Assembly: GCA_016841245.1 (NCBI GenBank) | Contig: JAENZN010000003.1 | Coordinates: 124,001-188,000 of the forward strand | DNA length: 64,000 bases | Reading direction: 5' to 3' | Origin: Syntrophomonas sp. | GTDB taxonomy: Bacteria; Bacillota; Syntrophomonadia; Syntrophomonadales; Syntrophomonadaceae | In this document: positions 15,646-60,540 of the stretch, in pieces | Position numbering within the stretch: the first letter of the stretch is position 1 | Layout of the letters: the number at the start of each line of letters is the position of its first letter | Program-made: the position numbers and the translations under genes | Notes under the pieces: model-generated | The model's database searches: none | What the model was told of the DNA's origin: nothing | What the model saw: the letters and a program-made list of their open reading frames with translations, nothing else

Positions 15646-15946
15646 ATCGAGCACAAATGTACAACTACAGACACTTGAGGTGCGATTCTTGCCATCTATG
15701 AACTCAGTCGTTTATCTCCGACCCATTATCACCCGTATTCTCCTAAGGTCTATTCATTATTAACATCTTTAGAAAGCTGTTAAGAAAGCATTACACTGGC
15801 ACAAAAGGTTTTGTAATTTTTTAGTAACGTATTTCAGAAGATGGATTTTTTAAAGATCCCCCAATATAGCCCATTTTCCTCCTCTTTATGTTGTTGGCAT
15901 ACCACTTGCATTTTAAAGAATCAGACTAAAAGGAGGAGGTGCCGTA
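15646..15946. other. Intergenic region, nothing certain
   Basis: No gene, strong terminator or repeat is visible between the flavoprotein gene and the ferredoxin remnant. TGGCACAAAAGG near 15810 resembles a -24 element but has no GC at -12. Confidence 0.3.
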
Positions 15947-16048
15947 ATGGCTCATGTAATTGGAGAGGGATGTTCCGGATGTGGTACTTGCCTTCCACCA
16001 CATTTGTACACCCGGAAAATGATTTACTTGTTCCATATCACCTATTAA
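15947..16048 (+). pseudogene. Truncated ferredoxin remnant (33 codons)
   Basis: After AAAGGAGGAGGTG the frame opens MAHVIGEGCSGCGTCLPPHL, the unmistakable N-terminus of a 2[4Fe-4S] ferredoxin with CxxCxxC. The fourth cysteine (expected as CP four residues on) is absent, and the frame changes to unrelated sequence before stopping at 16046-16048. The whole second cluster is missing. A 3' deletion is the simplest explanation. The excellent ribosome site suggests that the peptide may still be translated, but it cannot hold two clusters. Confidence 0.7.
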
Positions 16049-16131
16049 GTGGGGTTCACAATCAATTTTAAAGAAATCGTCTTTTATAAAATCCGACATT
16101 GCCAATTCCCTCTTTAATTAAACAAATGCTG

Positions 16132-16160
16132 CTTCCCTGCACTGACACCGTGCAGGGAAG
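16132..16160 (-). terminator. Stem-loop after the OYE remnant
   Basis: CTTCCCTGCAC and its perfect complement (11 bp) with a 7-base loop, about 57 bp downstream of the minus-strand stop at 16217. The following minus-strand sequence is only moderately T-rich. Confidence 0.5.
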
Positions 16161-16216
16161 ATAACTCAACTCGCTATTGCAAGGGGAACTTTCCTGCCTG
16201 CAACACACTCAGAGTT

Positions 16217-17059
16217 TTATAGTCCTTTACACTTTTCAATAAATCTACGGGCTCTCTTACGCATGCCATCATTCATCCAGAGTTCGGGATACAAATCTTC
16301 AAATACAGCGGTGGGGTTGACAGCACAGGTAATCCAGTTATATTGCACCAAGTTCATATAGCACTGCTGGCAACGTGAACATTTCACGATGTCTTCTTCC
16401 CTACCGGCTTCAACTTTAGCAGGCCAGACTGGATCAGCAATTGATTGCCTGCCGAGTGATACTATATCGCATTGGCCACTGGAAATAGCCTCAGCTGCTG
16501 CTTCTGCAGTCAACCAGTTTGGAACGATAACCGGCACACCACCCGCTTTTTTGAATCCTGGTCCCCACACGGTGAAATCACCTTCACCATCCGGTGCAAA
16601 AGTTTTACCCGGAGTCTCATAGGAGCCTTGTGATACATTAAAGAAATTAGCTCCAGCATCTTTGAAGAGTTTTACAAACTTGCAGGCTTCTTCATGGGTC
16701 AGACCATCTGGTGCCAACTCATCAACGGAAAGCCGGCAGCCAAGGGCTTTGTCTGTGCCAATTTTGGCTCTTACCCGTTCAATAATATTGGTTACTATAC
16801 GGCCTCGATTCTCCAGGCTTCCGCCGTATTCGTCATGACGTTTGTTGCACCTGGGGGATAGGAGTGAGTGCAGCAGATAGCCGTGCGGAGTATGGAGTTC
16901 AACGGCATCATAACCGACTTTATATGCAGCGACAATTTGCTCGACCATGACATTTTCAGGGTCATGAATTTCTTTGACATCAAGTGCTCTTGGGACATCG
17001 CCAAATATTGTGTGAGCAAAATCGGTGGCTTTTATCTTAATTGTTAATAAAGTGTTGCC
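16217..17059 (-). pseudogene. NADH:flavin oxidoreductase (OYE family), N-terminally truncated
   Basis: From 17059 leftwards the frame is open and reads a good OYE sequence: GDVPRALDVKEIHDPENVMV, then DAVELHTPHGYLLHSLLSP and EYGGSLENRGR. Later come a CSRCQQC cysteine motif and CAVNPT. A TGA sits directly before this segment at 17060-17062, and the first 120 or so residues of the barrel (including the FMN phosphate strand 1-3 region) are absent. The first in-frame ATG (16948) lies inside the barrel with no ribosome site. The C-terminus is short, ending after the iron-sulfur region, as in single-domain members. A sigma-54 promoter (17195-17210) still points at it. It is either a broken gene or a 5'-truncated remnant. 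Confidence 0.7.
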
Positions 17060-17584: not shown

Positions 17585-19570
17585 ATGATAATGAAGGATT
17601 CCCATAGACCGGAAGACCTTAGAATGAAATTCATTTCCGGCAAGCATATAGGTCCCAATGATATTCGTCCTGAAATACTTGAATCGTGGAAGCGTAGTAG
17701 GGAAAAAGTTGATCCTTTTAAAAAGAAAAATACTGCGATTATATCCGAAAATGAACTTAATCAAATGAGAACAAAATATAAAGAACTGATAGAAGTCACT
17801 TTTCCAGTAATGCAGCAATTTTATGAAGTAATAAACGACGTAGGAATGGAAGTAATTCTCTTGGTTAAAGAAGGGAGCGATCTTATTATACTGGAAATAG
17901 TTGGTGATGACGAGGCGTTGAACCAGGCTGAATCTGTAAACGCCATTCCTGGCAGCAACTGGGCCGAAGATATAACGGGAACCAACGCCGGAGTCATGGC
18001 GGTTATGGAGGATAAACCGTATCAACTACATCCTTCTGAAAACTATATGATTTTCTTGAGGAATAATACGATGTCGGCAGCACCCATACATGATCCAGAC
18101 ACGAATGTAATAATAGGATGTTTTATTATTGCCGGGAATGACAAGTTGGTGCACCCTCACACTTTAGGTATGGTAGCTGCACTAGTCAAGTTCATCGAAA
18201 AACAAATAACAACGATTAGACTAAAGAACAAAGCTGAAATTGAAAGTAGTTATAAAACTCTAATAATGGAATCTATCATCAGTGGCATAATAGCCGTTGA
18301 TGAAAAAATGAATATCACTCACATAAATCAAAAAGCGCTAGATATTTTTGGAATTAAAGAAGACCCTTTAAACCATAACATCTTTTCAATGCTGGCTAGT
18401 ACTTTTGGCGCAGCCAGTAAGCCTTCTGATCTTATAAGTGTTATCAAGATGCAGGAAGAAGTGAATGATGAATTCATTCATGTGCAAAATGATTTTGGAA
18501 TAATAAGATTCACATTAACCAGCCGATGCATTCACTTTAAAAACAAGTTAATTGGTAAATTATTCATAATACGGGAGATGTCTCATATTAAGAATTTGGT
18601 AGCACGCACTATGGGCAATTACGCAACGATCACTTTTAATGAATTGATAGGAGAAGATAAAAATTTTTTGAAATGTATTGCAACAGCAAACCGAGTAGCA
18701 AACTCATTCTCTACTGTTTTGCTTTTAGGTCAAAGCGGTACCGGAAAAGATCTTTTTGCCCAGTCCATTCACAATGCCAGCGGACGTGGTGATCAACCTT
18801 ATATCGCTATTAACTGCGCCGCTATCCCACGCGAACTTTTAGCAAGTGAGCTTTTCGGATATGTGGAAGGAGCTTTCACTGGAGCAAAAAAGGGAGGTAA
18901 TCCTGGAAAATTCGAGCTAGCTGATGGCGGAACGATGTTTTTGGATGAAATCGGGGATATGCCCTTAGATATGCAAACTTCTCTTTTAAGGGTACTTGAA
19001 GAAAGGGCTGTAACCCGCATTGGGGGTAAAACTTCTCTGCCAATCAATGTAAGAATAATTGCCGCAACCAATAAAGATTTGTCCAAAGAAGTTGAAAAGG
19101 GTAGTTTCCGTGAAGACCTTTATTATCGACTTAATGTAGTTTCAATTTCCCTTCCACCCTTAAAAGAGCGTAGGGGTGACATTATACTGTTGCTTGACTA
19201 TATAGCAAAGAGAATTTCGTCCCGTTTGGGTAAACCTACCTTTAAGATTGATGATGATTTTGTGATGGCCTGTTCCTTATACGATTGGCCAGGAAATATT
19301 CGGGAGTTACAGAATATCATTGAACGGTGTATTAATTTGGCTAATGATAGAACTCTGACTTTAGATCTTCTCCCTGAGCATATTGCGAAAAATGACGCCA
19401 TGATGCATGATTCGTCAGGACCAGGCAGGCACCTGAAAAGCTATACAAGAACGATTGAATCCAGGGTAATTAAAGACTATCTTAAGAAATACAACAATGT
19501 AGATCTTGTGGCCAAAGAATTGGGGATTTCAAGAAGTACGTTATATCGCAGATTAAACAAGGATAAATAA
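17585..19570 (+). CDS. Sigma-54-dependent transcriptional activator (AcoR-like; GAF-PAS-AAA-Fis)
   Basis: The 661-residue protein has a sensory N-terminal half and a complete enhancer-binding core. The sensory part has a GAF-like region ending HPHTLGMVAALVKFIE near residues 195-210 and a PAS-like region near 225-330. The core has Walker A GQSGTGKD near residue 381, the sigma-54-contacting GAFTGA loop in GYVEGAFTGAKKGG, Walker B FLDEIGDMP and a C-terminal Fis-type helix-turn-helix LAKELGISRSTLYRRL (VAKELGISRSTLYRR as read). It would sense a metabolite and activate -24/-12 promoters. ATGs at 17585 and 17591 are both possible after AAGGAAGGGGGG. Targets may be the ferredoxin/OYE remnants, the acyl-CoA cluster or the divergent thiolase; the sequence does not decide. 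Confidence 0.92.
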   Translation: MIMKDSHRPEDLRMKFISGKHIGPNDIRPEILESWKRSREKVDPFKKKNTAIISENELNQMRTKYKELIEVTFPVMQQFYEVINDVGMEVILLVKEGSDLIILEIVGDDEALNQAESVNAIPGSNWAEDITGTNAGVMAVMEDKPYQLHPSENYMIFLRNNTMSAAPIHDPDTNVIIGCFIIAGNDKLVHPHTLGMVAALVKFIEKQITTIRLKNKAEIESSYKTLIMESIISGIIAVDEKMNITHINQKALDIFGIKEDPLNHNIFSMLASTFGAASKPSDLISVIKMQEEVNDEFIHVQNDFGIIRFTLTSRCIHFKNKLIGKLFIIREMSHIKNLVARTMGNYATITFNELIGEDKNFLKCIATANRVANSFSTVLLLGQSGTGKDLFAQSIHNASGRGDQPYIAINCAAIPRELLASELFGYVEGAFTGAKKGGNPGKFELADGGTMFLDEIGDMPLDMQTSLLRVLEERAVTRIGGKTSLPINVRIIAATNKDLSKEVEKGSFREDLYYRLNVVSISLPPLKERRGDIILLLDYIAKRISSRLGKPTFKIDDDFVMACSLYDWPGNIRELQNIIERCINLANDRTLTLDLLPEHIAKNDAMMHDSSGPGRHLKSYTRTIESRVIKDYLKKYNNVDLVAKELGISRSTLYRRLNKDK

Positions 19571-19708: not shown

Positions 19709-22039
19709 CTACAAATCTATGCTCACAGTATGAGTTGCAGCATCCCAACCGACTTCTGCCCCAAAGGCCTGTGCTACGAAGCGGATCGGCAGACATACCC
19801 GGCCATTAAGGTTTACAGGAGCTGCATCCATGGTTACTGATGCACCATTGATTAACAATTCGGTGCTGCCGACCTTTAACTGAACAACCTTGTCACCCTT
19901 TATCAGGGTTACACTCTTATCAGTTCCAACCCAGAGGATATCTGAATCATTAATACCAAGAGCATAAGCTGCAAAGCGAATTGGCATATATGTTCTATCA
20001 CCAGAGATAAAAGGAGCTACATCCATTTCATCCTCTACCCCATTTATATAATAAGTGGTTGAACCAATGGTAAAGGTGGATGGATAACCAGTATTAGCAT
20101 TTACTACGGAATACATAACAGTTTCAATCAATCTCTGTCCATGGCTAGGGGAAACTACCATCCAATCATTAAATAATGCGCCGCCTATGGACACACTAAT
20201 ATCTCCACCTTCCTGATAGCGATCATCAAAGTCATAGGCAATATCACTGATAGTAATAGTCTCCAGTCTAGAATTCTTAAAATCGGATGAGAAGTCATCA
20301 AATTCTATGTACACTATATTACTCTCTCCGGGTTTAAATCCTTCATCATAACTGGGTGCCGGCTTGCTGTCCGGATCTGTTTCTCCTGGGTTATCAGGAT
20401 CTTCTTCCGCATCCTTGAAATCAAAATCTATAGATTTCCATAATGTTACATCTGCCTTTTCGCCATTTATAGCTACACTAGGTTCATTAGAAAAATATAC
20501 TCCGCCGGGCAGTTGTAGATATATGAAATTGTAAATATCCACTGCTGCTATCGCTTTGAAAGCATCCTTCTGTTTTTCCGTTATAGTGATCGTTCCTACT
20601 TCCTGATTAAGACCAGCAGTACTGTCTACGGAAAGAATATCAGCACTTACATCAGCATGGATCAGAGGAACAGGCCCTACTACCGCTGGTTCGCTTGTAT
20701 AGTCTCCTCCCACGGTAACGGTTATTTCCTGGCCCATATTGTAAGGTAATATAGCTACCGGCATATCGGAAAATTCAATATCATCATAGCTCTGGCCGTC
20801 TGGAACCTCCAGCCACAGACTGCGGCTGCCGTTAAACACTCCTAAAGAGTCAAGATCGACACTGCATACGGTATTTTCATAATCTTCCCAGTCACCTGAA
20901 AGTTTCTCTGATTTTATTACCCAGACTGCATTTGAAGAAAGGGTTAAATAGATTGTATCTCCCTCTTCAAAAGACCCGCCGCTGGGTTCGATCGTAAATG
21001 AGTCCAGTTTTATAGGCATTTCACCTATATAATAATCTTCATCCTGATCATCATCCACATCAATAGTAACCACCTTATCTGAAACATAGGCCACTAAAAT
21101 ATCGACATCCTTAAAATCGGCATCATTCAGGACAGATTCTATCGATACTTCTACATCACCCTCATCGGCTCCGGGAAATACTGTAACATAGCCGGTAAAT
21201 TCAAACTCATCGTCAAATAAACTTGACGGCTCATCGACTGTCAACACAAGCTCATCATTATCGCTACCAGCACTTATAGTTAGCTCAAGACTATAATTCC
21301 CTGAAAGAACATAAGAGTCATCGTTGTTTGCATAGATAGCGTCCATATCCCACTCAATATCATCGGGAAGGGTCAGAATAAATTCATCACCCTCGGCTAA
21401 CGCCCCTTTAACATTTTCTGTAAATATAAGTTTGGCTATCTCCTGCTCATTGCCTACCTCAATATTTTCCGCAGGCTTGGCACTTACAATTATTTCATCA
21501 TCAGCCTTTTCACCAATCAGCAGGTCCTCGGAGGCTGTACATGTTGAACCATCAGGATAAACACCCCGTACCGTAACCGAAACATAAATATCATCCTCAG
21601 CATCATCGTCTACATCTATACAACGGAATAAAGCCTTGATATAAAAGTTATCCCAGGTAGTACCTGCAGCAAAATTTGTGGTATCATACTGTATTACGTA
21701 TTCATCTTCATCGCTCTCACCGCTTGTTATGCAGGCTGTGGCATCAACAGTAGCGTCACTGGTATCGATAAAATTGGCTATAGTACCGCTAGTAATACCA
21801 CCACTATGCCAGTCAACATCACTGGGCAGTGCTACTTCTATATAAATTGAGTCTACTTCGTCAAATTCATCCATTTTTACAAATCCCAGATTCTGGGGTT
21901 CATCTTTGTCAGAAACAGTTGCTGTTGAATTACTGAAAGCAACACAAGCAGAAGCCAACGTCATACCGGGAATAATCAAAGTAAAAACGAAAGTAAATGC
22001 TAATAATATACTTATTGTTTTGCTCCGTTTGTTAAACAT
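19709..22039 (-). CDS. Secreted acidic surface protein with C-terminal copper-amine-oxidase-type domains
   Basis: The start at 22039 (776 residues) is preferred because GGAGG lies just upstream; an earlier in-frame ATG at 22111 has none. The N-terminus MFNKRSKTISILLAFTFVFT continues into a classic signal peptide with an ALA-like cleavage region (TLASA). The long middle is very rich in Asp and Glu and predicted beta-strand, with repeated units of about 130 residues (phrases such as FSNS...DLGFVKM, LPDDIEWD, LSSNAVW recur in theme). The end has two repeats of the copper-amine-oxidase N-domain type: DRTYMPIRFAAYALG and GRVCLPIRFVAQAFG. These domains in clostridia mark cell-wall-associated proteins rather than oxidases. 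The likely role is in the surface layer or in extracellular binding; the ligand is unknown. Confidence 0.85.
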   Translation of the reverse strand: MFNKRSKTISILLAFTFVFTLIIPGMTLASACVAFSNSTATVSDKDEPQNLGFVKMDEFDEVDSIYIEVALPSDVDWHSGGITSGTIANFIDTSDATVDATACITSGESDEDEYVIQYDTTNFAAGTTWDNFYIKALFRCIDVDDDAEDDIYVSVTVRGVYPDGSTCTASEDLLIGEKADDEIIVSAKPAENIEVGNEQEIAKLIFTENVKGALAEGDEFILTLPDDIEWDMDAIYANNDDSYVLSGNYSLELTISAGSDNDELVLTVDEPSSLFDDEFEFTGYVTVFPGADEGDVEVSIESVLNDADFKDVDILVAYVSDKVVTIDVDDDQDEDYYIGEMPIKLDSFTIEPSGGSFEEGDTIYLTLSSNAVWVIKSEKLSGDWEDYENTVCSVDLDSLGVFNGSRSLWLEVPDGQSYDDIEFSDMPVAILPYNMGQEITVTVGGDYTSEPAVVGPVPLIHADVSADILSVDSTAGLNQEVGTITITEKQKDAFKAIAAVDIYNFIYLQLPGGVYFSNEPSVAINGEKADVTLWKSIDFDFKDAEEDPDNPGETDPDSKPAPSYDEGFKPGESNIVYIEFDDFSSDFKNSRLETITISDIAYDFDDRYQEGGDISVSIGGALFNDWMVVSPSHGQRLIETVMYSVVNANTGYPSTFTIGSTTYYINGVEDEMDVAPFISGDRTYMPIRFAAYALGINDSDILWVGTDKSVTLIKGDKVVQLKVGSTELLINGASVTMDAAPVNLNGRVCLPIRFVAQAFGAEVGWDAATHTVSIDL

Positions 22040-22254
22040 AAATATCCTCCTTTTATTGGTTTTACAGTAATTTAATCCTCTTACACTGCACTCGCTGATT
22101 AGCTGTTGCAACTTTGTTTATCCATCTGTTCAGATACTCAAGGTATCATCGGGCATCTATTTTTGTTTCCTCTACGAGTGGAAGCAGATTTCTAATTTCC
22201 GAATAATTTATTTGCCATATTTCTCCTTTTCATATATTCTTAAATTGAATTCTG

Positions 22255-22325
22255 GGCGCCTTTTCACAAATTTGTTTGTGTCGTTCCTTCACTTCGGCAC
22301 AATTGTGTAGAAGGGCGTCTTTTTT
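22255..22325. repeat. Compact nested stem-loop element upstream of the surface-protein gene
   Basis: On the plus strand GGCGCCTTTTCACAA pairs (with GU pairs and a bulge) with TTGTGTAGAAGGGCGTC at the other end, followed by six Ts. Two smaller hairpins sit inside: CACAAA-tttg-TTTGTG and the palindrome CACAATTGTG. On the minus strand it lies in the region leading to the surface-protein start, about 215 bp away. It may be a leader regulatory RNA for that gene or a terminator for plus-strand transcription. Confidence 0.45.
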
Positions 22326-22651
22326 ATGCTCCTTGGTATCCCTGTCCCTCCTTGCTCTTTTTCTTCAATTAAATTAGGTGATCCAGTCTTTATAATGTAC
22401 AGCCTCTCCCTTCTCTTGATATTTTTTGATAATAAGCAGGTAATTAAATCTTATGTTTTTTCTGCCACTCCTTTCTGTTCATATAATATTTAATGTTTAC
22501 AGAGGCGAAATATAGTTTCGCCTGAATCTAGATACCTCTGGCATAAATTGTTATTAATCACCATTCCATTTTCAGATGTAATTTTTCTTAGAATTACAAT
22601 CATTCTTAAAACAAAACCTACTTTTAATATATTATGATGAATAGGGAGGCC
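22326..22651. other. Intergenic region, nothing certain
   Basis: T-rich, pyrimidine-rich sequence without a recognisable gene or promoter. It separates the surface-protein leader from the thiolase 3' region. Confidence 0.3.
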
Positions 22652-22687
22652 GCTTTCTGAAAGGCCTTCGATGGCCTTCCAGAAAGC
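22652..22687. repeat. Inverted repeat downstream of the thiolase gene
   Basis: GCTTTCTGaAAGGCC, six bases, then GGCCTTcCAGAAAGC: 15-base arms with one mismatch. It lies about 160 bp after the thiolase stop. No T-run follows immediately, so a terminator role is possible but unproven. Confidence 0.5.
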
Positions 22688-22849
22688 ATGATGTTGAAAC
22701 TTTTTGTTTAAATGAATGCTAGAGTGGGATGGAATCTGGGATCCCTGAATTCCTTAAGGGGGGTATTCTATAACCATTATTAATACATCTATACCATTTA
22801 GGTTACACAATAACAGTGGTTCTATGGGCATGTTCTTGGTTATTTAAAT

Positions 22850-24079
22850 CTAAATGTCTCTGGTCCAGAGGGAAGCCATCGCCGGGCCGCCCCCAACGCA
22901 AAGAGAAGCTCCGCCTACTGTTTTCCCCAACCTTTCTAATTCATAATAGAGACTGACAATGATACGTAGACCCGTACAGCCTACCGGATGTCCCAAGCCG
23001 ATTCCAGAGCCGTTGTTATTGATATTGCCACAGCGATTGATATCGCCCATATCCAGTTCAATACCGAAATCGTCTTTTATCATTCTTTTAACCCCTATCA
23101 CCTGGGGTGCAAAAGCTTCGTTTATTTCCCAATAATCCACCTGATCATAGGCCATTCCTGCCATTTTCAGGGCTTTGGGTATAGCTACCGCCGGGCCCAG
23201 GCCCATAACTTTTGCATCTACACCTTCGGTGCAGACGGTAATCAGTTTCATTAATGGCTTAATACCTAACTCTTCTGCCTTTTTCTTGGTCATTAAAATC
23301 ACTGCCGCCGATGCATCATTCATGCCCGACGCATTGGCGGCTGTTACTACACCGCCTTTTTTAAAAGCCGGAGGCAGTTTACTAACTGTTTCCATACTAG
23401 CTCCCCGGATGGGATGTTCGTCAGTATCGAATACTTTAACTCCTTTTTTAGTCTTTAATTCCACGGGAACAATTTCAGCTTTGAAATAGCCTTCATCAAT
23501 TGCTCTAACAGCACGCATGTGACTGGTTACGGCCACCTGATCACACTCTTCCCGGGTAATGCCGTATAATTCAGCGATGTTTTCAGCAGTTCCGCCCATA
23601 TGGCTTCCAGCCAGTTGGCAAAATAGACCATCAGAAAGAATTGGGTCTACCGCTTTTGTATCGCCCATTCTTGCTCCCCATCTCATAGCTGGAAGTATAT
23701 AAGGGGGCCGGCTCATACATTCAGTTCCAGTTACTAATGCGATCTGAGTATCACCGAGCATTAGCTTCATCGCCGCAATATCAAGGGCCCGCATACCAGA
23801 TGCACAATTCTGGCTGAGCATGGTAGCTCCTGAACGTTTGTCCATTCCTATTCCCATTGCCACTATACGGGGAGGTAGCGAGCCGTTTCCGTGATGCATG
23901 CACAATCCAGATACGATTTCATCCACCATGGCCGGTTCAATACCTGCACGTTTAATAGCTTCAGTTCCAACAATCTTAGTCAACTCATTGGCTGGTACGT
24001 CAGCCAGACCTCCACCATACTTGCCTATAGCCGTCCTGCAGGCACTTACCAGCACCACTTCGTTTATTTCTTTCAACAT
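22850..24079 (-). CDS. Acetyl-CoA acetyltransferase (thiolase)
   Basis: The 409-residue biosynthetic/degradative thiolase has all catalytic elements. The nucleophilic cysteine lies in QNCASGMRALD near residue 92, the histidine-bearing block is NEAFAPQ, and the second cysteine is in GHPVGCTGLRI with a C-terminal GGASLCVGGGPAMAS. It interconverts two acetyl-CoA with acetoacetyl-CoA or cleaves longer 3-ketoacyl-CoA. The start at 24079 follows AGGAGGAATTC. It has a close paralogue at 59323 with near-identical C-terminal sequence. Upstream on the same strand come the ferredoxin pseudogene and a sigma-54 promoter, which may still drive this gene. Confidence 0.95.
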   Translation of the reverse strand: MLKEINEVVLVSACRTAIGKYGGGLADVPANELTKIVGTEAIKRAGIEPAMVDEIVSGLCMHHGNGSLPPRIVAMGIGMDKRSGATMLSQNCASGMRALDIAAMKLMLGDTQIALVTGTECMSRPPYILPAMRWGARMGDTKAVDPILSDGLFCQLAGSHMGGTAENIAELYGITREECDQVAVTSHMRAVRAIDEGYFKAEIVPVELKTKKGVKVFDTDEHPIRGASMETVSKLPPAFKKGGVVTAANASGMNDASAAVILMTKKKAEELGIKPLMKLITVCTEGVDAKVMGLGPAVAIPKALKMAGMAYDQVDYWEINEAFAPQVIGVKRMIKDDFGIELDMGDINRCGNINNNGSGIGLGHPVGCTGLRIIVSLYYELERLGKTVGGASLCVGGGPAMASLWTRDI

Positions 24080-24197
24080 TATGAATTCCTCCTTAATTAT
24101 TTATGGTTATTTGATCCTTCATACTTGAATCAAATAATCTAAAGTATCAATCGTAATCGTTTTGATCCATTTTATTTACCACTTTTCACTAACCAGA

Positions 24198-24429
24198 TCA
24201 TGTTAAGATAAGTGGATCTTGTCTTAACTTAAATACGCTCACTTTGCTAATCCTTATTCCTGGCTTTGGGGGGATCTGCATTGGTCAAACTTCGATGCAT
24301 TTACCACAACTGAGAGCCGGACTTGGGGTCAATGCTTGATCCATTTTTATCTTCCCTAATTGATTCAACTGAATATTCTCCAAATCAGACACCGCAACCA
24401 AAACATTCTGCTCCAATTTTATAAGCCAT
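24198..24429 (-). pseudogene. Ferredoxin pseudogene with stops at cysteine positions and a frameshift
   Basis: From the ATG at 24429, behind a GGGGGGCG run, the minus strand reads MAYKIGAECFGCGV and then a TGA exactly where the third cluster cysteine belongs. Reading on gives FGEYSVESI, where the normal ECP has become EYS. About 20 codons later the frame must shift by one to recover SCGKCIEV, again a TGA at the cysteine, then PMQIPPKPGIRISK, the usual ferredoxin tail. So the gene has lost at least three cysteines and its frame. Its remains lie between the sigma-54 promoter at 24575 and the thiolase, suggesting an old ferredoxin-thiolase operon. Confidence 0.75.
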
Positions 24430-24574
24430 TACGCCCCCCTTTTTTATAGTGATGAAGTTCGTTATTGCAAATGATATGCCAACAAGTTAAATGGAAAATC
24501 CACATAAGCCCTTATTATGACGTAAAAAGTCAACTTACAAGGGGTGTTATAGGTCCTATTCTTATTACTTGTTG

Positions 24575-24590
24575 CGCAATTATTATGCCA
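24575..24590 (-). promoter_or_regulatory. Sigma-54 promoter upstream of the ferredoxin pseudogene and thiolase
   Basis: The minus strand reads TGGCATAATAATTGCG, identical over all 16 bases to the site at 6190-6205. It would transcribe the ferredoxin remnant and then the thiolase, whose start is about 495 bp downstream. Confidence 0.65.
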
Positions 24591-25087
24591 ATTTTGAATA
24601 ATCAAAACTTAAATATCGAAGATAAACAAGTAGTAAAGATTAGGAGAGGAAAGGAATTTCAACTGGATATAAAATAGTTTAATCATGTCATTTTTGAAAT
24701 AGTTGAAATGAATATTGTTTCACTTTTGAAACGGAAATGGTCTTAATCCATGAATCCACATATCATCGCCACATGGTGGGGGCCACCCACTATCAGAGCT
24801 ATAAGTATGCCCAGCTATCATGCGGAAATACCAGTCTATAAAACTACTTGAAAAGCTAAATATCTGAACCCCGCCTAGGGCGCGTTGGGATGGCAAAGGC
24901 TGCATGTACTCTATTAAGTTGTTTCTTGCCCATCAGAATGTACCCTCCTTGAGCGCTGCTCGGATATGGCAGTATCCGTAACAAGATTTGTGATTTCAAA
25001 AGCTATCAATGGCGTTGTTATTTCGGATTTCTTCCGGGTTTAGGCCAGACCGACAGCATGCCGACCCAGTTTTATGATTTAGTTCAG
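24591..25087. other. Gene-free region between divergent sigma-54 promoters
   Basis: I see no gene with a ribosome site. A 61-codon minus-strand frame (24720-24905) contains an aromatic segment (YFRMIAGHTYSSDSGWPPP) but has no upstream GGAGG and no recognisable family. The region probably holds activator sites for the promoters at 24575 and 25088. Confidence 0.3.
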
Positions 25088-25103
25088 TGGTATGTTTCTT
25101 GCA
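25088..25103 (+). promoter_or_regulatory. Sigma-54 promoter of the SDR/metallo-hydrolase operon
   Basis: TGGTATGTTTCTTGCA has exact GG-N10-GC spacing and lies 150 bp before the first SDR gene. Confidence 0.7.
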
Positions 25104-25252
25104 TAAATTAAGGAAGGGATGGCTGATTTAACATAGGCATCCAAGGATGCCAGGTGGAACCAGTTGTGAAGGAGAGCAATGCTGAAAGGGAGGGATTCGT
25201 TAATAAGCTTGCATTAACCATGATTAGATCAAATTAATGGGAGGTATGAAAT

Positions 25253-26056
25253 ATGTCGAATATAGAAAGCAGTCAAACAAATATTCCGCAGATCCCTGAT
25301 AGCTGTAATGTACCGGTCAGCGGGCCGATTGACCTGAAAGGGAAAGTAGCGATTGTTACCGGTGCTAAAGGAGGCATTGGCCAAGCCGCTTGTTATGCCC
25401 TGGCTAGGGCAGGGGCAAAAGTAACTGTATCTGATATTACTGCCTGCGAAGAAACCATTGAAGGCTTAAAAGCTATTGGCGCGGAGTTCATTTATATAAT
25501 AACTGATGTAACCCAGGAAGCAGATTGTAACAACTTGACTGATGTTACACTTGAAAAATTTGGGCGCATTGATATACTCGTGAGCAATGCAGGAATATTA
25601 GATCACACGCCTATTGACAAGCTTTCCCTGGAGGAATGGAACAGGGTTATAAACGTGGATCTCACGGGAACCTTTCTGAGTGCCAAAGCGGTGTGGAATC
25701 CTATGAAACAGCAGAAGAGCGGACGAATTATCTGCCTCAGTTCATTAGCGGCGAGGATAGGAGGAGCATTATCGGGACCGCACTATGTGGCAGCCAAGGC
25801 AGGGGTAGGAGGGCTTGTTAAATGGTGTGCCAAATATGGTGCCCCAGACGGTATTCTGGTTAACGCTATTGCCCCCGGTCTCGTTTGGACACCTATGACA
25901 ACGGGTTACCCTTACCCTGAGAACGCTGTTCCCGTAGGGCGTATTGGCCGTCCCGAAGATATCGCTGAGACAATTGTATTTCTTGCTTCGGATATGTCAA
26001 ACTATATCACCGGCTGTATGTTAGATGTTAATGGGGGATTCTTTATGACATTATAG
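25253..26056 (+). CDS. Short-chain dehydrogenase/reductase (FabG-like)
   Basis: The 267-residue protein is a classical SDR. The nucleotide motif TGAKGGIGQA is near residues 36-45, NNAG is replaced by SNAG, the catalytic Ser lies in LSSLAARIGG and the YxxxK pair in HYVAAKAG, with an N[AG]G tail (DVNGGFFM). About 25 extra residues precede the Rossmann strand. It would reduce or oxidise a 3-hydroxy/3-keto acyl compound or an alcohol with NAD(P). The start is an ATG after GGGAGG. It is first in a likely three-gene operon after the sigma-54 promoter, 12 bp from the next SDR. Confidence 0.92.
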   Translation: MSNIESSQTNIPQIPDSCNVPVSGPIDLKGKVAIVTGAKGGIGQAACYALARAGAKVTVSDITACEETIEGLKAIGAEFIYIITDVTQEADCNNLTDVTLEKFGRIDILVSNAGILDHTPIDKLSLEEWNRVINVDLTGTFLSAKAVWNPMKQQKSGRIICLSSLAARIGGALSGPHYVAAKAGVGGLVKWCAKYGAPDGILVNAIAPGLVWTPMTTGYPYPENAVPVGRIGRPEDIAETIVFLASDMSNYITGCMLDVNGGFFMTL

Positions 26057-26068
26057 GGGGGTAAAAGA

Positions 26069-26854
26069 ATGCGTTTTAATAATAAAGTAGCTTTAGTCAC
26101 TGGAGCGGGCAGCGGTATGGGTAAGTCTATCGCTTTGTTTTTGGCAAAAGAGGGCGCCGATATTATTGTAAATGACATAAATAGTGAGTTAGCAAATGCG
26201 ACAGCCGATGATATTAACAATATAGGGCAACAGGGATTATCAGTTACTGCAGACATAAGCAGCGAAGATGAAGTACAAAGCATGGTGGAAAAATCCATTG
26301 TAGTGTTTGGACGAATTGATTTTCTAATAAACAATGCGGGTATATCTGATCAATTTGTTCCTACCATAGAACAAAAGGCAGATTACTGGCAGAGGGTAAT
26401 TGATATTCATCTTCGAGGCTGTTTTTTATGCTCAAAAGAAGTCGGAAAACACATGATAGAAAAAAGGTATGGCAAAATAGTCAACATATCTTCCGTGGTT
26501 GGCATAGGGGGTTCCCCCATGAGAAACGCGTATGGACCGGCAAAAGCGGGGATAATTATGCTAACCAAGACACTTGCTGTAGAGTGGGCAAGCTATAACA
26601 TAAATGTAAACTCCGTTTCACCAGGGTATATATTAACCCCTCTGATCGAAAAGGGAATAGAGTTAGGGATCATAGATGATAAAGTAATCATCAGGCGTAC
26701 TCCCATGGGAAGATTGGGACGCCCGGAGGAAATATCGGAAGCGGTGGCTTTTCTGCTTTCTGATGCGGCAAGCTACGTTAACGGGTGTAACCTGCCGGTG
26801 GATGGCGGATGGACATCTTTTGGCTCATATGGTGACGCGTTCAATATACCTTAA
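26069..26854 (+). CDS. Short-chain dehydrogenase/reductase (FabG-like)
   Basis: This 261-residue classical SDR has TGAGSGMGKS near residues 11-20, NNAG, the catalytic Ser in ISSVVGIGG, YGPAK for the Tyr/Lys pair, and a C-terminal PVDGGW. It is not a close copy of the preceding SDR, and the two probably act on different steps or substrates. Ribosome site is TAGGGGGGT. With the first SDR and the metallo-hydrolase downstream it suggests a small catabolic module for a hydroxylated or cyclic carbon source (inference). Confidence 0.92.
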   Translation: MRFNNKVALVTGAGSGMGKSIALFLAKEGADIIVNDINSELANATADDINNIGQQGLSVTADISSEDEVQSMVEKSIVVFGRIDFLINNAGISDQFVPTIEQKADYWQRVIDIHLRGCFLCSKEVGKHMIEKRYGKIVNISSVVGIGGSPMRNAYGPAKAGIIMLTKTLAVEWASYNINVNSVSPGYILTPLIEKGIELGIIDDKVIIRRTPMGRLGRPEEISEAVAFLLSDAASYVNGCNLPVDGGWTSFGSYGDAFNIP

Positions 26855-26918
26855 AAGTACCCGCTTAATTTAATGAAGATGTCGTTGATGAACCCGATTT
26901 TTAAGGAGGAAGACTACC

Positions 26919-27755
26919 ATGAAAATATACTTCTTTGCAACTGCTTATTCAAGGGTTCCTAAGGGGCTTTTTGTTAAGGGAGCGCCTTGGAAATCCGTTC
27001 AATTTCCCATCCTCAATGCCCTAATCGAGCATAATGGAGATTTAATTCTTTTAGATACGGGCCTGGGTACCAGGATAGGGGAAGAGATGAAGCTCCCGCA
27101 GTACCGCGCCCAGGCGTTTTTCAACCGTTTTGTCATGAGAACAGTTTTCGATGCCGGCCGTGATCCTTTAATACATCAGCTGCCTGCTAATGGTTTTGAC
27201 CATTTAGCGGTCAAGTATGTCATCTTATCTCATCTTCACTGGGATCACGCAGGTGGGATGCGCGACTTTCCCAATGCCAAATTTATTGTTGGCAAGAAGG
27301 AATGGGAAGCTGCAACCGCGTCAGACTCGCATAAGCATGCCTATATTAGTGAGCAGTATGATCTGAGCGATAACCTGGATATTGATCTGGTTTCCACGGT
27401 TCCAGGCCAATCATTTCTTGGTTTTCCTGATTCCTTGGATTTGTTTGGAGATGGCCGTTTTATTCTGGTTGATCTTCCTGGTCATTCGGAGGGGTTAATG
27501 GGAGTATTTGTAACCCTACCATCGGGTAAAAGGTTCCTTTTCCCCGGGGATTCCTTCTATTTCCCGGAAAACCTGGAAGGGAACGCACCCAAGTCCAGGC
27601 TGATGCAAAAACTGGTCCATGAAAAAAACCAGGTCAACGAGACACTTAAAACGCTGCATGATCTTGCTAAGGCCGAACCTGACCTGGAGATAGTCAGCTA
27701 CCATGATCATCGTATTCCAGGGAGGTATCAACTCGCTCCGGTTTACTATGAGTGA
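26919..27755 (+). CDS. Metallo-beta-lactamase-fold hydrolase (lactonase-like)
   Basis: The 278-residue protein has the binuclear-metal motif HLHWDHAGG (near residues 105-113), a DTGLGTRIG strand before it and a LPGHSEG block with the third histidine. This layout (GxxxLLDTG..., FVGKKEWEA) resembles the N-acyl-homoserine-lactonase-like branch of the superfamily. Hydrolysis of a lactone or other ester ring is therefore the best guess. It follows the two SDR genes by 64 bp with an AAGGAGGAAG ribosome site. Alcohol oxidation followed by lactone opening would make a coherent short pathway. Confidence 0.85.
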   Translation: MKIYFFATAYSRVPKGLFVKGAPWKSVQFPILNALIEHNGDLILLDTGLGTRIGEEMKLPQYRAQAFFNRFVMRTVFDAGRDPLIHQLPANGFDHLAVKYVILSHLHWDHAGGMRDFPNAKFIVGKKEWEAATASDSHKHAYISEQYDLSDNLDIDLVSTVPGQSFLGFPDSLDLFGDGRFILVDLPGHSEGLMGVFVTLPSGKRFLFPGDSFYFPENLEGNAPKSRLMQKLVHEKNQVNETLKTLHDLAKAEPDLEIVSYHDHRIPGRYQLAPVYYE

Positions 27756-57037: not shown

Positions 57038-57122
57038 CTTATCGATTGAATGTGATATATTAATAATAAATTGATATGATTGACTGCTAGTGGTTAATTA
57101 TCAGATTGAGGTGAAGAAAAAA

Positions 57123-58868
57123 ATGCAAAATGATTTAGAATTAAACTTGATGTTTGATGCCTTAATTGAGAGTCCCTATATGGCTTATGTTATCGTCGAC
57201 AAACATGGTTACATCACTATGATGAATCAGACCTACCTGGATTTATTGGAACTCAAGAAGGAAGAAGTTATTGGCAAACATATCCTGGAGGTAACACCTC
57301 AATCAAAATTGCCTGAAGTGCTGAAAACAGGGAAAATCAATAAAGCTGACATATGGCCGATTATGGGCCGGGACACGATTGTTACCCGCTTGCCCATAGT
57401 TAAGAATGATGCAATAGTAGGCGCTATAGGGCAGAGCCTATTTTTGGAAATGTCCAGCGTACAAATACTCCTGAAGAAGCTGCAGGAAACCTTCAATACT
57501 ATGTCAGATGCTCTGGTACAAAGCCCGCACATGATTTATGTCATAGTAAATAAGGATGGATACATAACCTTCATGAATCAAACTTACCTGGATATGCTGG
57601 AAAAAAGAATAGAGGATGTTATTGACAAGCATATTCATGAAATAACCCCCAAATCCAGACTGCCTGAAGTAATTGAAACCGGGCAGATTCATGAAGTGGA
57701 CTTGTGGGAAGTAAATGGACAGGATACTATAATCACTCGCGCCCCCATTATAAGAGATGGAGAAATTGTTGGGGCGATAGGCCAGAGTTTATTTCTGGAT
57801 ATGTCCGGAGCCAAACTGCTGGTTAATAGGCTGCAGGAAGTGGAGAAGGAATTATACCTTTATAAAGAAGAGGTAAGACAGATATACAAAGCTAAATGGC
57901 ATTTTAATGATTTGATAGGCCAGAGCATGGAATTTTCGCTGGTGAAATCCATTGCTCATCAACTCTCAATAACTACTTCCACACTATTGATAACTGGTGA
58001 AAGCGGTACCGGAAAAGAACTCTTTGCCCAGGCCATCCATAATGCCAGCAACCGGGAACACTGCCCGTTTGTAAGAATAAACTGTGCAGCTTTACCAGAA
58101 AGTCTTCTGGAATCGGAGCTATTCGGATATGAAGAAGGCGCCTTTTCTGGAGCCAGAAAAGGTGGTAAACCAGGAAAATTTGAACTGGCCAAGGGCGGGA
58201 CCATCTTTCTTGATGAGATCGGTGATATGCCATTAAACATGCAGACCAAAATGCTCACGGTATTGCAGGAACGGGTTATTGAAAGGGTTGGAGGAACCCG
58301 TCCCATCCCCATCAATGTTAGAGTAATAGCAGCAACCAATCGGGATTTGGAAGAACTGGTCAAGCAACAGCTCTTCAGGGAGGATCTCTATTACCGGCTC
58401 AACGTGGTACGGTTATCAATACCACCACTAAGAAAACGAATGGAAGATATCCCGCTGCTGATTCATACTTTAATAAAAAGAATAAATTGTACTTTAGGGG
58501 CTGATACCAAAGGCATATCTGATTTGGCCCTGGATCTGCTGAAAAAGTATTCCTGGCCGGGTAATGTTCGGGAACTGGAAAATTTATTGGAAAGGGCCGT
58601 GAATCTAGCCGGCTTCGATAGTGAAGATATCCTGGAAATAGAACACTTCCCATCATTGAGCCATATCGATAAGCAGCCGGCCAGGAAAAACCCATCTGAT
58701 CATAATTTAAACAAGGCCATCGAAGGTCTGGAAAAGGATATGATTATTAGCACCCTGATGCTTACTAATAATAACAAAGCTCAAGCAGCACAGCTCATGG
58801 GCTTAAACAAATCGGTTTTATACCGTAAATTAAAGAAATATGATCTAATGGATTTCAAGACTAATTAA
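57123..58868 (+). CDS. Sigma-54-dependent activator with two PAS domains
   Basis: The ATG at 57123 (GAGGTG nine bases upstream) is preferred over the GTG at 57090, giving 581 residues. Two PAS domains in tandem are clear repeats of each other: ESPYMAYVIVDKHGYITMMN near residues 16-35 and QSPHMIYVIVNKDGYITFMN about 125 residues later. Each is followed by a ...ITRxPI...VGAIGQSLFL strand pair. The AAA+ core has GESGTGKE, GYEEGAFSGARKGG, FLDEIGDMP and a C-terminal HTH, AAQLMGLNKSVLYRKL. The sigma-54 loop is GAFSGA rather than GAFTGA. Two sigma-54 promoters and a thiolase gene follow, the likely targets. Confidence 0.92.
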   Translation: MQNDLELNLMFDALIESPYMAYVIVDKHGYITMMNQTYLDLLELKKEEVIGKHILEVTPQSKLPEVLKTGKINKADIWPIMGRDTIVTRLPIVKNDAIVGAIGQSLFLEMSSVQILLKKLQETFNTMSDALVQSPHMIYVIVNKDGYITFMNQTYLDMLEKRIEDVIDKHIHEITPKSRLPEVIETGQIHEVDLWEVNGQDTIITRAPIIRDGEIVGAIGQSLFLDMSGAKLLVNRLQEVEKELYLYKEEVRQIYKAKWHFNDLIGQSMEFSLVKSIAHQLSITTSTLLITGESGTGKELFAQAIHNASNREHCPFVRINCAALPESLLESELFGYEEGAFSGARKGGKPGKFELAKGGTIFLDEIGDMPLNMQTKMLTVLQERVIERVGGTRPIPINVRVIAATNRDLEELVKQQLFREDLYYRLNVVRLSIPPLRKRMEDIPLLIHTLIKRINCTLGADTKGISDLALDLLKKYSWPGNVRELENLLERAVNLAGFDSEDILEIEHFPSLSHIDKQPARKNPSDHNLNKAIEGLEKDMIISTLMLTNNNKAQAAQLMGLNKSVLYRKLKKYDLMDFKTN

Positions 58869-58946
58869 GCCAAGGAAGTAAAATAATACTAAACCGAGAT
58901 AGACTGAAGAAGATAAAGATGCTTTTAACAAAATATGAAAATTATA

Positions 58947-58961
58947 GTATCTAATAGATAC
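58947..58961. promoter_or_regulatory. Palindrome upstream of the tandem sigma-54 promoters
   Basis: GTATCTA-A-TAGATAC, perfect 7-bp arms, 50 bp before the first -24 element at 59012. A likely site for the two-PAS activator (inference from position). Confidence 0.45.
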
Positions 58962-59011
58962 TCTGGGGTAATTATTTGCAACCCAAGAGAATATGTATGG
59001 GGAGGATAATT

Positions 59012-59027
59012 TGGCATAGTAGTTGCT
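59012..59027 (+). promoter_or_regulatory. Sigma-54 promoter, distal of two before the thiolase
   Basis: TGGCATAGTAGTTGCT, exact GG-N10-GC spacing. Its -12 half lies in a small palindrome AGTTGCT-ttt-AGCAACT (59021-59037) that could compete for binding or affect melting. Confidence 0.6.
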
Positions 59028-59134
59028 TTTAGCAACTCCAGGTAACATCCTTTATATATTAATACTTAAAGGTTAATTCTTTGTGAATGCGGAGAACTAG
59101 CCTTTTTTTTTCTATTTATTAAGATATATGGTAT

Positions 59135-59150
59135 TGGCATAGTATTTGCA
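59135..59150 (+). promoter_or_regulatory. Sigma-54 promoter, proximal of two before the thiolase
   Basis: TGGCATAGTATTTGCA, exact GG-N10-GC spacing, about 170 bp before the thiolase start. It differs from the promoter at 33462 by one base only (AGTAT against AGTAA). Confidence 0.8.
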
Positions 59151-59322
59151 AAATATAAATGAGCATGAGGGTATCTATTATCTTATGCTTTAAATAAAAA
59201 TGCCGGTTTGTTCCAAAATTGTTGAAAAAGGGGGTGAGATAGCAAAGTATAAGTGATGATGCCAAACCAGTATACACTTAAAGGTTCAACCTAAAAATAA
59301 TATATAGAGGGGGACATGTTTA

Positions 59323-60540
59323 ATGGAGACTAAAGAAGTAGTAATGGTTAGTGCCTGTAGGACTGCTATTGGAAGATTCATGGGCAGTTTAAAGGATGTA
59401 CCTGCCAGAGATCTTGCTATAACTGTTGGTAAGGGTGCAATCGAAAGAGCAGGGATTTCTGCTGACATCATTGATGAAATTACTATGGGGCAGCTTTATA
59501 CGGCTATGCAGGGTTCTTTGCCTGCCCGGCAAGTAGGAATGAGACTGGGGCTTCCGCATAGGAGTGGTGCAGTTAGTGTTAACCAGAACTGTACATCGGG
59601 TATGCGGGCACTAGAAATAGCCGCTCATAATATTATGCTGGGCCAGACTGAAATTGCTCTGGTAATAGGGGTAGAAAACATGACCGGAACGCCTTACCTG
59701 CTTCCTAAAGCCAGGATGGGCTACCGGATGAATGCCGGGACTATTGAAGACCATATGATACACGATGGGCTATTTGATGCACTGGTTCCCGGTCATATGG
59801 GAATGACTGCCGAAAACATTGCTGAACGCTATGGTATTACCCGTGAACAATGCGACGAATTGGCCCTTATAAGCCATCAACGTGCTACTGCAGCGGTCCA
59901 AAACGGTACATTTGAACGGGAAATAGTACCAGTGGAAATAAAAAGTAAAAAGGGCAGCAAGTTCTATGAAACAGACGAGCACATGATCCCTGATGCCAGC
60001 CTGGAAGTAATGGGCAAACTGCCTTCAGCCTTTAAAAAAGGCGGAGTTGTAACTGCTGCCAATGCTTCCGGTATCAATGATGGGGCAGCAGCAGCAATTA
60101 TTATGTCCAAGGAAAAAGCAGAAGCACTGGGAGTTAAACCGTTGATGAAACTAATAAACATTTGCGGAGAAGGTGTAGACCCTCTGGTTATGGGATTGGG
60201 GCCTGCAGTTGCTATTCCCAAGTGTCTCAAACAAGTAGGCATGAAGTTTGACGATGTGCAGTACTGGGAAGTTAATGAAGCATTTGCTGCCCAGTGGCTG
60301 GGTGTGGGAATAATGCTTAAACAAGACTATGGTATGGACCTGGATAATAACATGAACTTAGATAAAGTGAATCATAATGGTTCTGGAATTGCCCTTGGAC
60401 ATCCGGTAGGATGTACCGGACTACGTATAATAGTAAGCCTCTACTATGAAATGGAACGACTGGGATTGACTACCGGCGGAGCTTCTCTGTGTGTCGGAGG
60501 CGGACCATCTATGGCTTCTTTATGGAGTCGCGACGTATAG
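59323..60540 (+). CDS. Acetyl-CoA acetyltransferase (thiolase), paralogue
   Basis: This 405-residue thiolase has the nucleophilic cysteine in QNCTSGMRALE near residue 90, NEAFAAQW, and GHPVGCTGLRIIVSLYYEME with the second catalytic cysteine. The C-terminal GGASLCVGGGP is the same as in the thiolase at 22850. It would form or split acetoacetyl-CoA or longer ketoacyl-CoA. The ATG lies 12 bases after AGAGGGGG. Two sigma-54 promoters and a dedicated activator upstream suggest that its expression follows a specific metabolite. Confidence 0.95.
   Translation: METKEVVMVSACRTAIGRFMGSLKDVPARDLAITVGKGAIERAGISADIIDEITMGQLYTAMQGSLPARQVGMRLGLPHRSGAVSVNQNCTSGMRALEIAAHNIMLGQTEIALVIGVENMTGTPYLLPKARMGYRMNAGTIEDHMIHDGLFDALVPGHMGMTAENIAERYGITREQCDELALISHQRATAAVQNGTFEREIVPVEIKSKKGSKFYETDEHMIPDASLEVMGKLPSAFKKGGVVTAANASGINDGAAAAIIMSKEKAEALGVKPLMKLINICGEGVDPLVMGLGPAVAIPKCLKQVGMKFDDVQYWEVNEAFAAQWLGVGIMLKQDYGMDLDNNMNLDKVNHNGSGIALGHPVGCTGLRIIVSLYYEMERLGLTTGGASLCVGGGPSMASLWSRDV

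Follow-up and report, generated by a model that had tools for sequence, protein, structure and literature searches.

A decayed ferredoxin gene ahead of an intact thiolase gene in Syntrophomonas

Functional 2[4Fe-4S] ferredoxins are small proteins recognized by two CxxCxxCxxxCP motifs, which together provide eight cysteine ligands. The genome of Syntrophomonas sp. studied here (a 3.9-Mb draft in 56 contigs) encodes an intact housekeeping ferredoxin of this clostridial type, which is 59 amino acids (aa) in length (C16:90516-90677). In the present work, we have analyzed a 64,000 nucleotide stretch of the same genome (hereafter the window), where the remnant of another 2[4Fe-4S] ferredoxin gene is found between a sigma-54 (-24/-12) promoter-like site and the gene for an acetyl-CoA C-acyltransferase (thiolase). 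An earlier note on this DNA had described the remnant as a pseudogene, and this description is strengthened by a second genome, that of the genus-mate Syntrophomonas sp. B5_bin.5 (JAENYG010000006.1, G003:C34; hereafter G003), in which the corresponding site carries both shared and private lesions. Our analyses indicate that this is a real, old and shared ferredoxin pseudogene ahead of an intact thiolase gene, and that it is a case of ordinary gene decay. No title dealing with this site was found among the literature matches listed.

The ferredoxin remnant and its lesions

The remnant and its eight ligand positions (Cys1 to Cys8) are as follows; where no other source is named, the assignment was read from the sequence.

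24243..24429, minus strand: 2[4Fe-4S] ferredoxin gene remnant (pseudogene) with its ATG at 24429, from the sequence and the relative G003
from 24405, minus strand: Cys1, TGT, kept
from 24396, minus strand: Cys2, TGC, kept
24385..24387, minus strand: Cys3 position, TGA (TGG in G003; TGC in a second remnant of the window, with its ATG at 15947)
24373..24375, minus strand: Cys4 position, TAT (Tyr), common to G003
24316..24318, minus strand: Cys5 position, GGC (Gly)
about 24309 (approximate), minus strand: one extra base, causing a frame shift before Cys6, from the reading of frames
from 24308, minus strand: Cys6, TGT, kept
from 24299, minus strand: Cys7, TGC, kept
24285..24287, minus strand: Cys8 position, TGA, common to G003

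Four of the eight cluster cysteines required in a functional protein are thus lost and four remain, and the Tyr at Cys4 is directly followed by a Ser (TCA) at the usual ferredoxin Pro position. In place of a single open frame of about 55–60 codons, the remnant has a TGA after 14 codons, the frame shift and a second TGA. All four of the lesions named in the earlier note (viz. TGA for the third cysteine of the first CxxCxxC, TGA at the fourth cysteine of the second cluster, a Cys-to-Tyr change at ECP, and a one-base frameshift) are present, but its list was incomplete, as the Gly at Cys5 had been overlooked. The extent that it gave, 24198-24429, begins correctly at the ATG, but the alignable ferredoxin sequence stops near 24243 and not at 24198.

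The ferredoxin origin of the remnant is beyond chance. A reading of the remnant in which X was placed at the stops and at the frame shift scored 99 against the intact 59 aa ferredoxin of the same genome, whereas shuffled sequences scored 24 on average (standard deviation 4.7) and none of 5000 reached 99. When the whole window was searched by tblastn with the intact ferredoxin, the remnant site was the top match (E 3.6e-5). A Pfam search of the X-marked translation gave no match at E 0.001, which is unsurprising since half of the ligands have been lost; despite this, the score and the tblastn match give the remnant the significant similarity to an intact homologue that is expected of a pseudogene. 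Elsewhere in the same genome, a ferredoxin-type protein (L014; G000:C37:231976-232109) has its two cluster motifs in different frames, which may reflect either another broken iron-sulfur gene or an error of sequencing.

The orthologous site and the question of selenocysteine

The earlier note had proposed a comparison with the orthologous locus in relatives. A DNA search with 441 bases against 61 genomes gave matches only in the genome itself and in G003, where the same order (promoter-like site, dead ferredoxin, thiolase) is found. The two remnants share the Tyr at Cys4, the Ser that follows it, the TGA at Cys8, the same promoter-like site and the same thiolase. They differ in that G003 has TGG where the window has TGA at Cys3, has private gaps of 11 bases and 2 bases, and carries in-frame TAA, TAG, and TGA codons upstream of the shared TGA. 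The 12 substitutions that separate the remnants are distributed 3/5/4 over codon positions 1/2/3, and the remnant shows no sign of coding constraint; disabling lesions and decay free of codon constraint, as in a pseudogene, are hence seen in two genomes. The lesions shared by both genomes are most simply explained by an inactivation before the split of the two Syntrophomonas species, which we consider most likely, and the lesions private to each genome by continued decay after the split.

These observations also bear on the possibility that an intact gene has been obscured by a sequencing or assembly error. The genome is a draft of many contigs, which leaves some room for such errors, but a second genome that is 12 substitutions and several gaps away has two of the lesions in common and others of its own; error is therefore rejected as an explanation that is exceedingly improbable.

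The earlier note had found it notable that both stop codons hit cysteine codons. This emphasis was not sustained, as only the TGA at Cys8 is common to G003, which has TGG at Cys3, and other cysteines have changed to Tyr and Gly. In the frame-joined remnant, 8 of the 32 one-step paths to a stop codon lie at cysteines (8 of 34 if transitions are given twofold weight), and under this rough model the probability that two of two stops would fall there is about 0.05. The coincidence would therefore be unusual weakly at best, and such a probability is little evidence for a feature that was picked out of 64 kb.

If the TGA codons were read as selenocysteine, the ferredoxin would be a working selenoprotein. 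Both TGAs lie at cysteine positions, and the genome contains selB (379 bits) and tRNA-Sec (72 bits), each above its cut-off, so that TGA decoding in the cell is likely; the search for decoding genes covered these two, and both were above cut-offs in G003 as well. Against this reading, the two TGAs of the window lie in different frames, Cys4 and Cys5 have become Tyr and Gly, and the first site is TGG in G003, whose frame contains TAA, TAG, and TGA elsewhere. The test for a SECIS-like hairpin after each TGA, also suggested in the earlier note, gave no fold better than shuffled sequences (z +1.16, where 179 of 200 shuffles were equally or more stable, and z -0.45, where 64 of 200 were), and an Rfam search of 22000-26000 found no SECIS family, its sole match up to E 1 being caiA (E 0.75, under the gathering score). 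The combination of in-frame UGA, SECIS hairpin, and open frame that marks a selenoprotein gene is thus absent from the remnant, and neither UGA nor Cys is kept at the first TGA in G003, the only relative found, although the second TGA is shared. Use of selenocysteine is accordingly rejected on frame, G003 sequence, and folding, despite the presence of decoding genes, and we regard it as having next to no likelihood. The TGA at Cys3 is not a fixed feature, being TGG in G003 and TGC in the second remnant, and the pair of stops at cysteine positions has the appearance of ordinary decay rather than of hidden selenocysteine use. The case carries a caution, in that TGA at cysteines suggests a selenoprotein where the genome contains selenocysteine machinery, and a single related genome sufficed to reveal plain decay.

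The promoter-like site, the thiolase and the search for an intact pair

The features that surround the remnant are listed below, together with a truncated duplicate of the module found elsewhere in the window.

24466..24482, minus strand: sigma-54 (-24/-12) promoter-like site, TTGGCATATCATTTGCA, near consensus, identical in G003
22850..24079, minus strand: acetyl-CoA C-acyltransferase (thiolase), intact, 409 aa, 97% aa identity in G003
17585..19570, plus strand: sigma-54-dependent activator (PAS, AAA+, Fis-type HTH), which adjoins the thiolase in G003
15894..15994, plus strand: second module copy, comprising a sigma-54-like site and the first ferredoxin codons (tblastn E 0.029)

The sigma-54 consensus contains the element TGGCAC. 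The promoter of the remnant, described earlier as perfect, is a good site but not a perfect one, as it reads TGGCAT at this element, a single departure. The pattern TTGGCATNNNANTTGCA, derived from the window's own sites, has 10 matches in the genome, and its backward reading has 0. Across five genomes the sigma-54 pattern was found at 36 places, of which 20 loci were fetched and 17 checked for ferredoxin (L070 was left out); one of these 17 (L064) has a two-cluster domain, but of a different protein, and two loci that were read separately (L065 and L066) begin other genes. Sigma-70-like sites were not in excess (5, vs. 7.2 in shuffled sequences), and an upstream search for inverted repeats to which an activator might bind revealed a single weak palindrome (24862-24891). 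Another sigma-54-like sequence, TGGTATGTTTCTTGCA, was seen by eye at about 25088.

The thiolase is intact, as the earlier note had stated, and it is also constrained. Its 409 codons encode a protein with 96.6% aa identity to that of G003, and the differences are distributed 12/6/47 over codon positions 1/2/3; the next best thiolase copies in five genomes of the genus are 70–72% identical. The activator at 17585..19570 is a possible regulator of the thiolase. Between these two genes, which adjoin in G003, the window has an 800 aa protein with a copper-amine-oxidase N-terminal domain (19709-22111). Divergent from the thiolase are two short-chain dehydrogenases and a lactamase-fold hydrolase (25253-27755), which show 73–81% aa identity to G003, vs. 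95–98% for the thiolase and a CoA-transferase. Another sigma-54 activator is encoded at 57090-60540, together with a thiolase 62% identical to the first and, at 59134, a sigma-54-like site; no ferredoxin was seen between them.

In the second module, the sigma-54-like site (15894-15910) is followed by an ATG at 15947, reading MAHVIGEGCSGCGTC. It matches the main remnant in its sigma-54-like site, in the start ATGGCTYATNNAATTGGAG and in cluster one as far as the third cysteine, but the similarity stops beyond that point, and no thiolase is present among the listed adjoining frames of at least 50 aa. The region 15885-16948 looks like a gene graveyard, where the second ferredoxin start is followed by a minus-strand frame of 59 codons and then by a minus-strand frame of 243 aa that resembles, by eye, a truncated protein of the 2-enoate-reductase type.

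Among the 17 thiolase loci that a scan of genome contigs gave, there was no intact ferredoxin-thiolase pair. A ferredoxin sequence precedes the thiolase at 1 of the 17 loci, which is that of G003 itself (L015) and is a dead copy (the best other match has E 0.13), and this is also the only one in which the 600 bases ahead of the thiolase contain a sigma-54-like site; three positive controls were detected by the test for such sites. Protein searches extended the survey. Among 101 genomes, 100 had a match at E 0.001, and the 30 loci fetched among the matches listed were the two remnants and 28 intact ferredoxins of generic type. A search at the level of the phylum covered 398 genomes, with 15 candidates scored in each, and gave a match at 1e-12 in 40 of them, with the two remnants first and the next at 58%; eight further loci (L090-L097) among the matches listed were all generic ferredoxins. 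Of 14 genomes with thiolase relatives (a set that excludes L015, L028 from the G003 genome, and L031), 12 matched the ferredoxin query at 1e-8, the best at 48%. Apart from the remnants, no ferredoxin closer than 58% to the query was thus found among the matches listed for the 101, 398, and 14 genomes. Of these 36 generic ferredoxin loci, 35 have no sigma-54-like site in the 300 bases upstream (in one case only 89 bases), and L034 has a loose match at 206 bases. Within the 17 thiolase loci and the matches listed, the ferredoxin-thiolase pair is restricted to this lineage, where it occurs in broken form only. The suggestion of the earlier note that an electron carrier was lost from an operon is hence plausible, while the once-working operon itself is only inferred, since no intact pair occurs at the 17 thiolase loci, where the sole ferredoxin is the dead G003 copy.

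Present state of the remnant and comparison with the housekeeping ferredoxin

The remnant differs from G003 at 12 of 174 positions and the whole leader at 35 of 442, vs. 26 of 198 fourfold sites of the thiolase (Fisher p 0.059 for the remnant and 0.042 for the leader); the fraction of fourfold sites that differ ranges from 0.15 to 0.50 across six further genes of this region. The lower divergence of the leader is a weak hint of constraint, which gives a small opening to the idea that the leader still has a function. One form of such a function would be the recruitment of the remnant as a 5' leader, either a structured RNA or a short CxxC leader peptide, that controls the thiolase. Both species retain the start codon, a G-rich ribosome site and the promoter-like site, the second remnant (ATG 15947) likewise keeps its promoter-like site and first codons, and the divergence of the leader is below that of the fourfold sites. 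The p values are marginal, however, the folding was ordinary in the 4 stretches tried, no Rfam match was above cut-off in 22000-26000, the peptides would differ in length (14 codons in the window and 23 in G003), and both of the substitutions within the first 14 codons alter the amino acid. We therefore consider this takeover improbable, and give slightly less credence still to the idea that the dead ferredoxin gene has been retained to regulate the thiolase, as the leader of its sigma-54-controlled mRNA, for example through an early-stopping CxxC peptide that would set expression.

Very probably, the locus consists of a decayed ferredoxin gene behind a sigma-54 promoter, likely dead before the species split and now part of a thiolase leader that is either not translated or translated only abortively. 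A small 2[4Fe-4S] ferredoxin gene would once have stood first behind the sigma-54 promoter, its product presumably working with the thiolase, and it would have been inactivated, most likely before the two Syntrophomonas species parted, with different further lesions arising in each since. Today the remnant would most likely form part of a leader of about 0.4 kb, untranslated or abortively translated, in a thiolase mRNA that is probably still made from the sigma-54 promoter. Decay is favored by the loss of half of the cluster cysteines together with the frame shift, by the orthologous site in G003 that is dead too, by the contrast between the substitutions of the remnant and those of the thiolase over codon positions, and by the intact 59 aa ferredoxin encoded elsewhere in the genome, which may cover the loss. 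Less readily accommodated are the somewhat lower divergence of the remnant and its flanks than of the thiolase fourfold sites, the failure of the searches to find an intact ortholog in the same position, and the lack of a Pfam match. The locus would thus represent the minor loss of an electron carrier, specific to a Syntrophomonas lineage in which a different ferredoxin is still intact.

Compared with this housekeeping ferredoxin, the remnant has lost 4 of the 8 ligands and its frame, is not matched by Pfam with its stops masked, and may have an extra C-terminal stretch that has no counterpart there. The two are alike in the eight ligand positions, in both order and spacing, and in the start MAYxI, and they are 47% identical across the N-terminal 36 residues of the raw remnant reading and 50% identical over 54 residues when a cysteine-bearing query is used.
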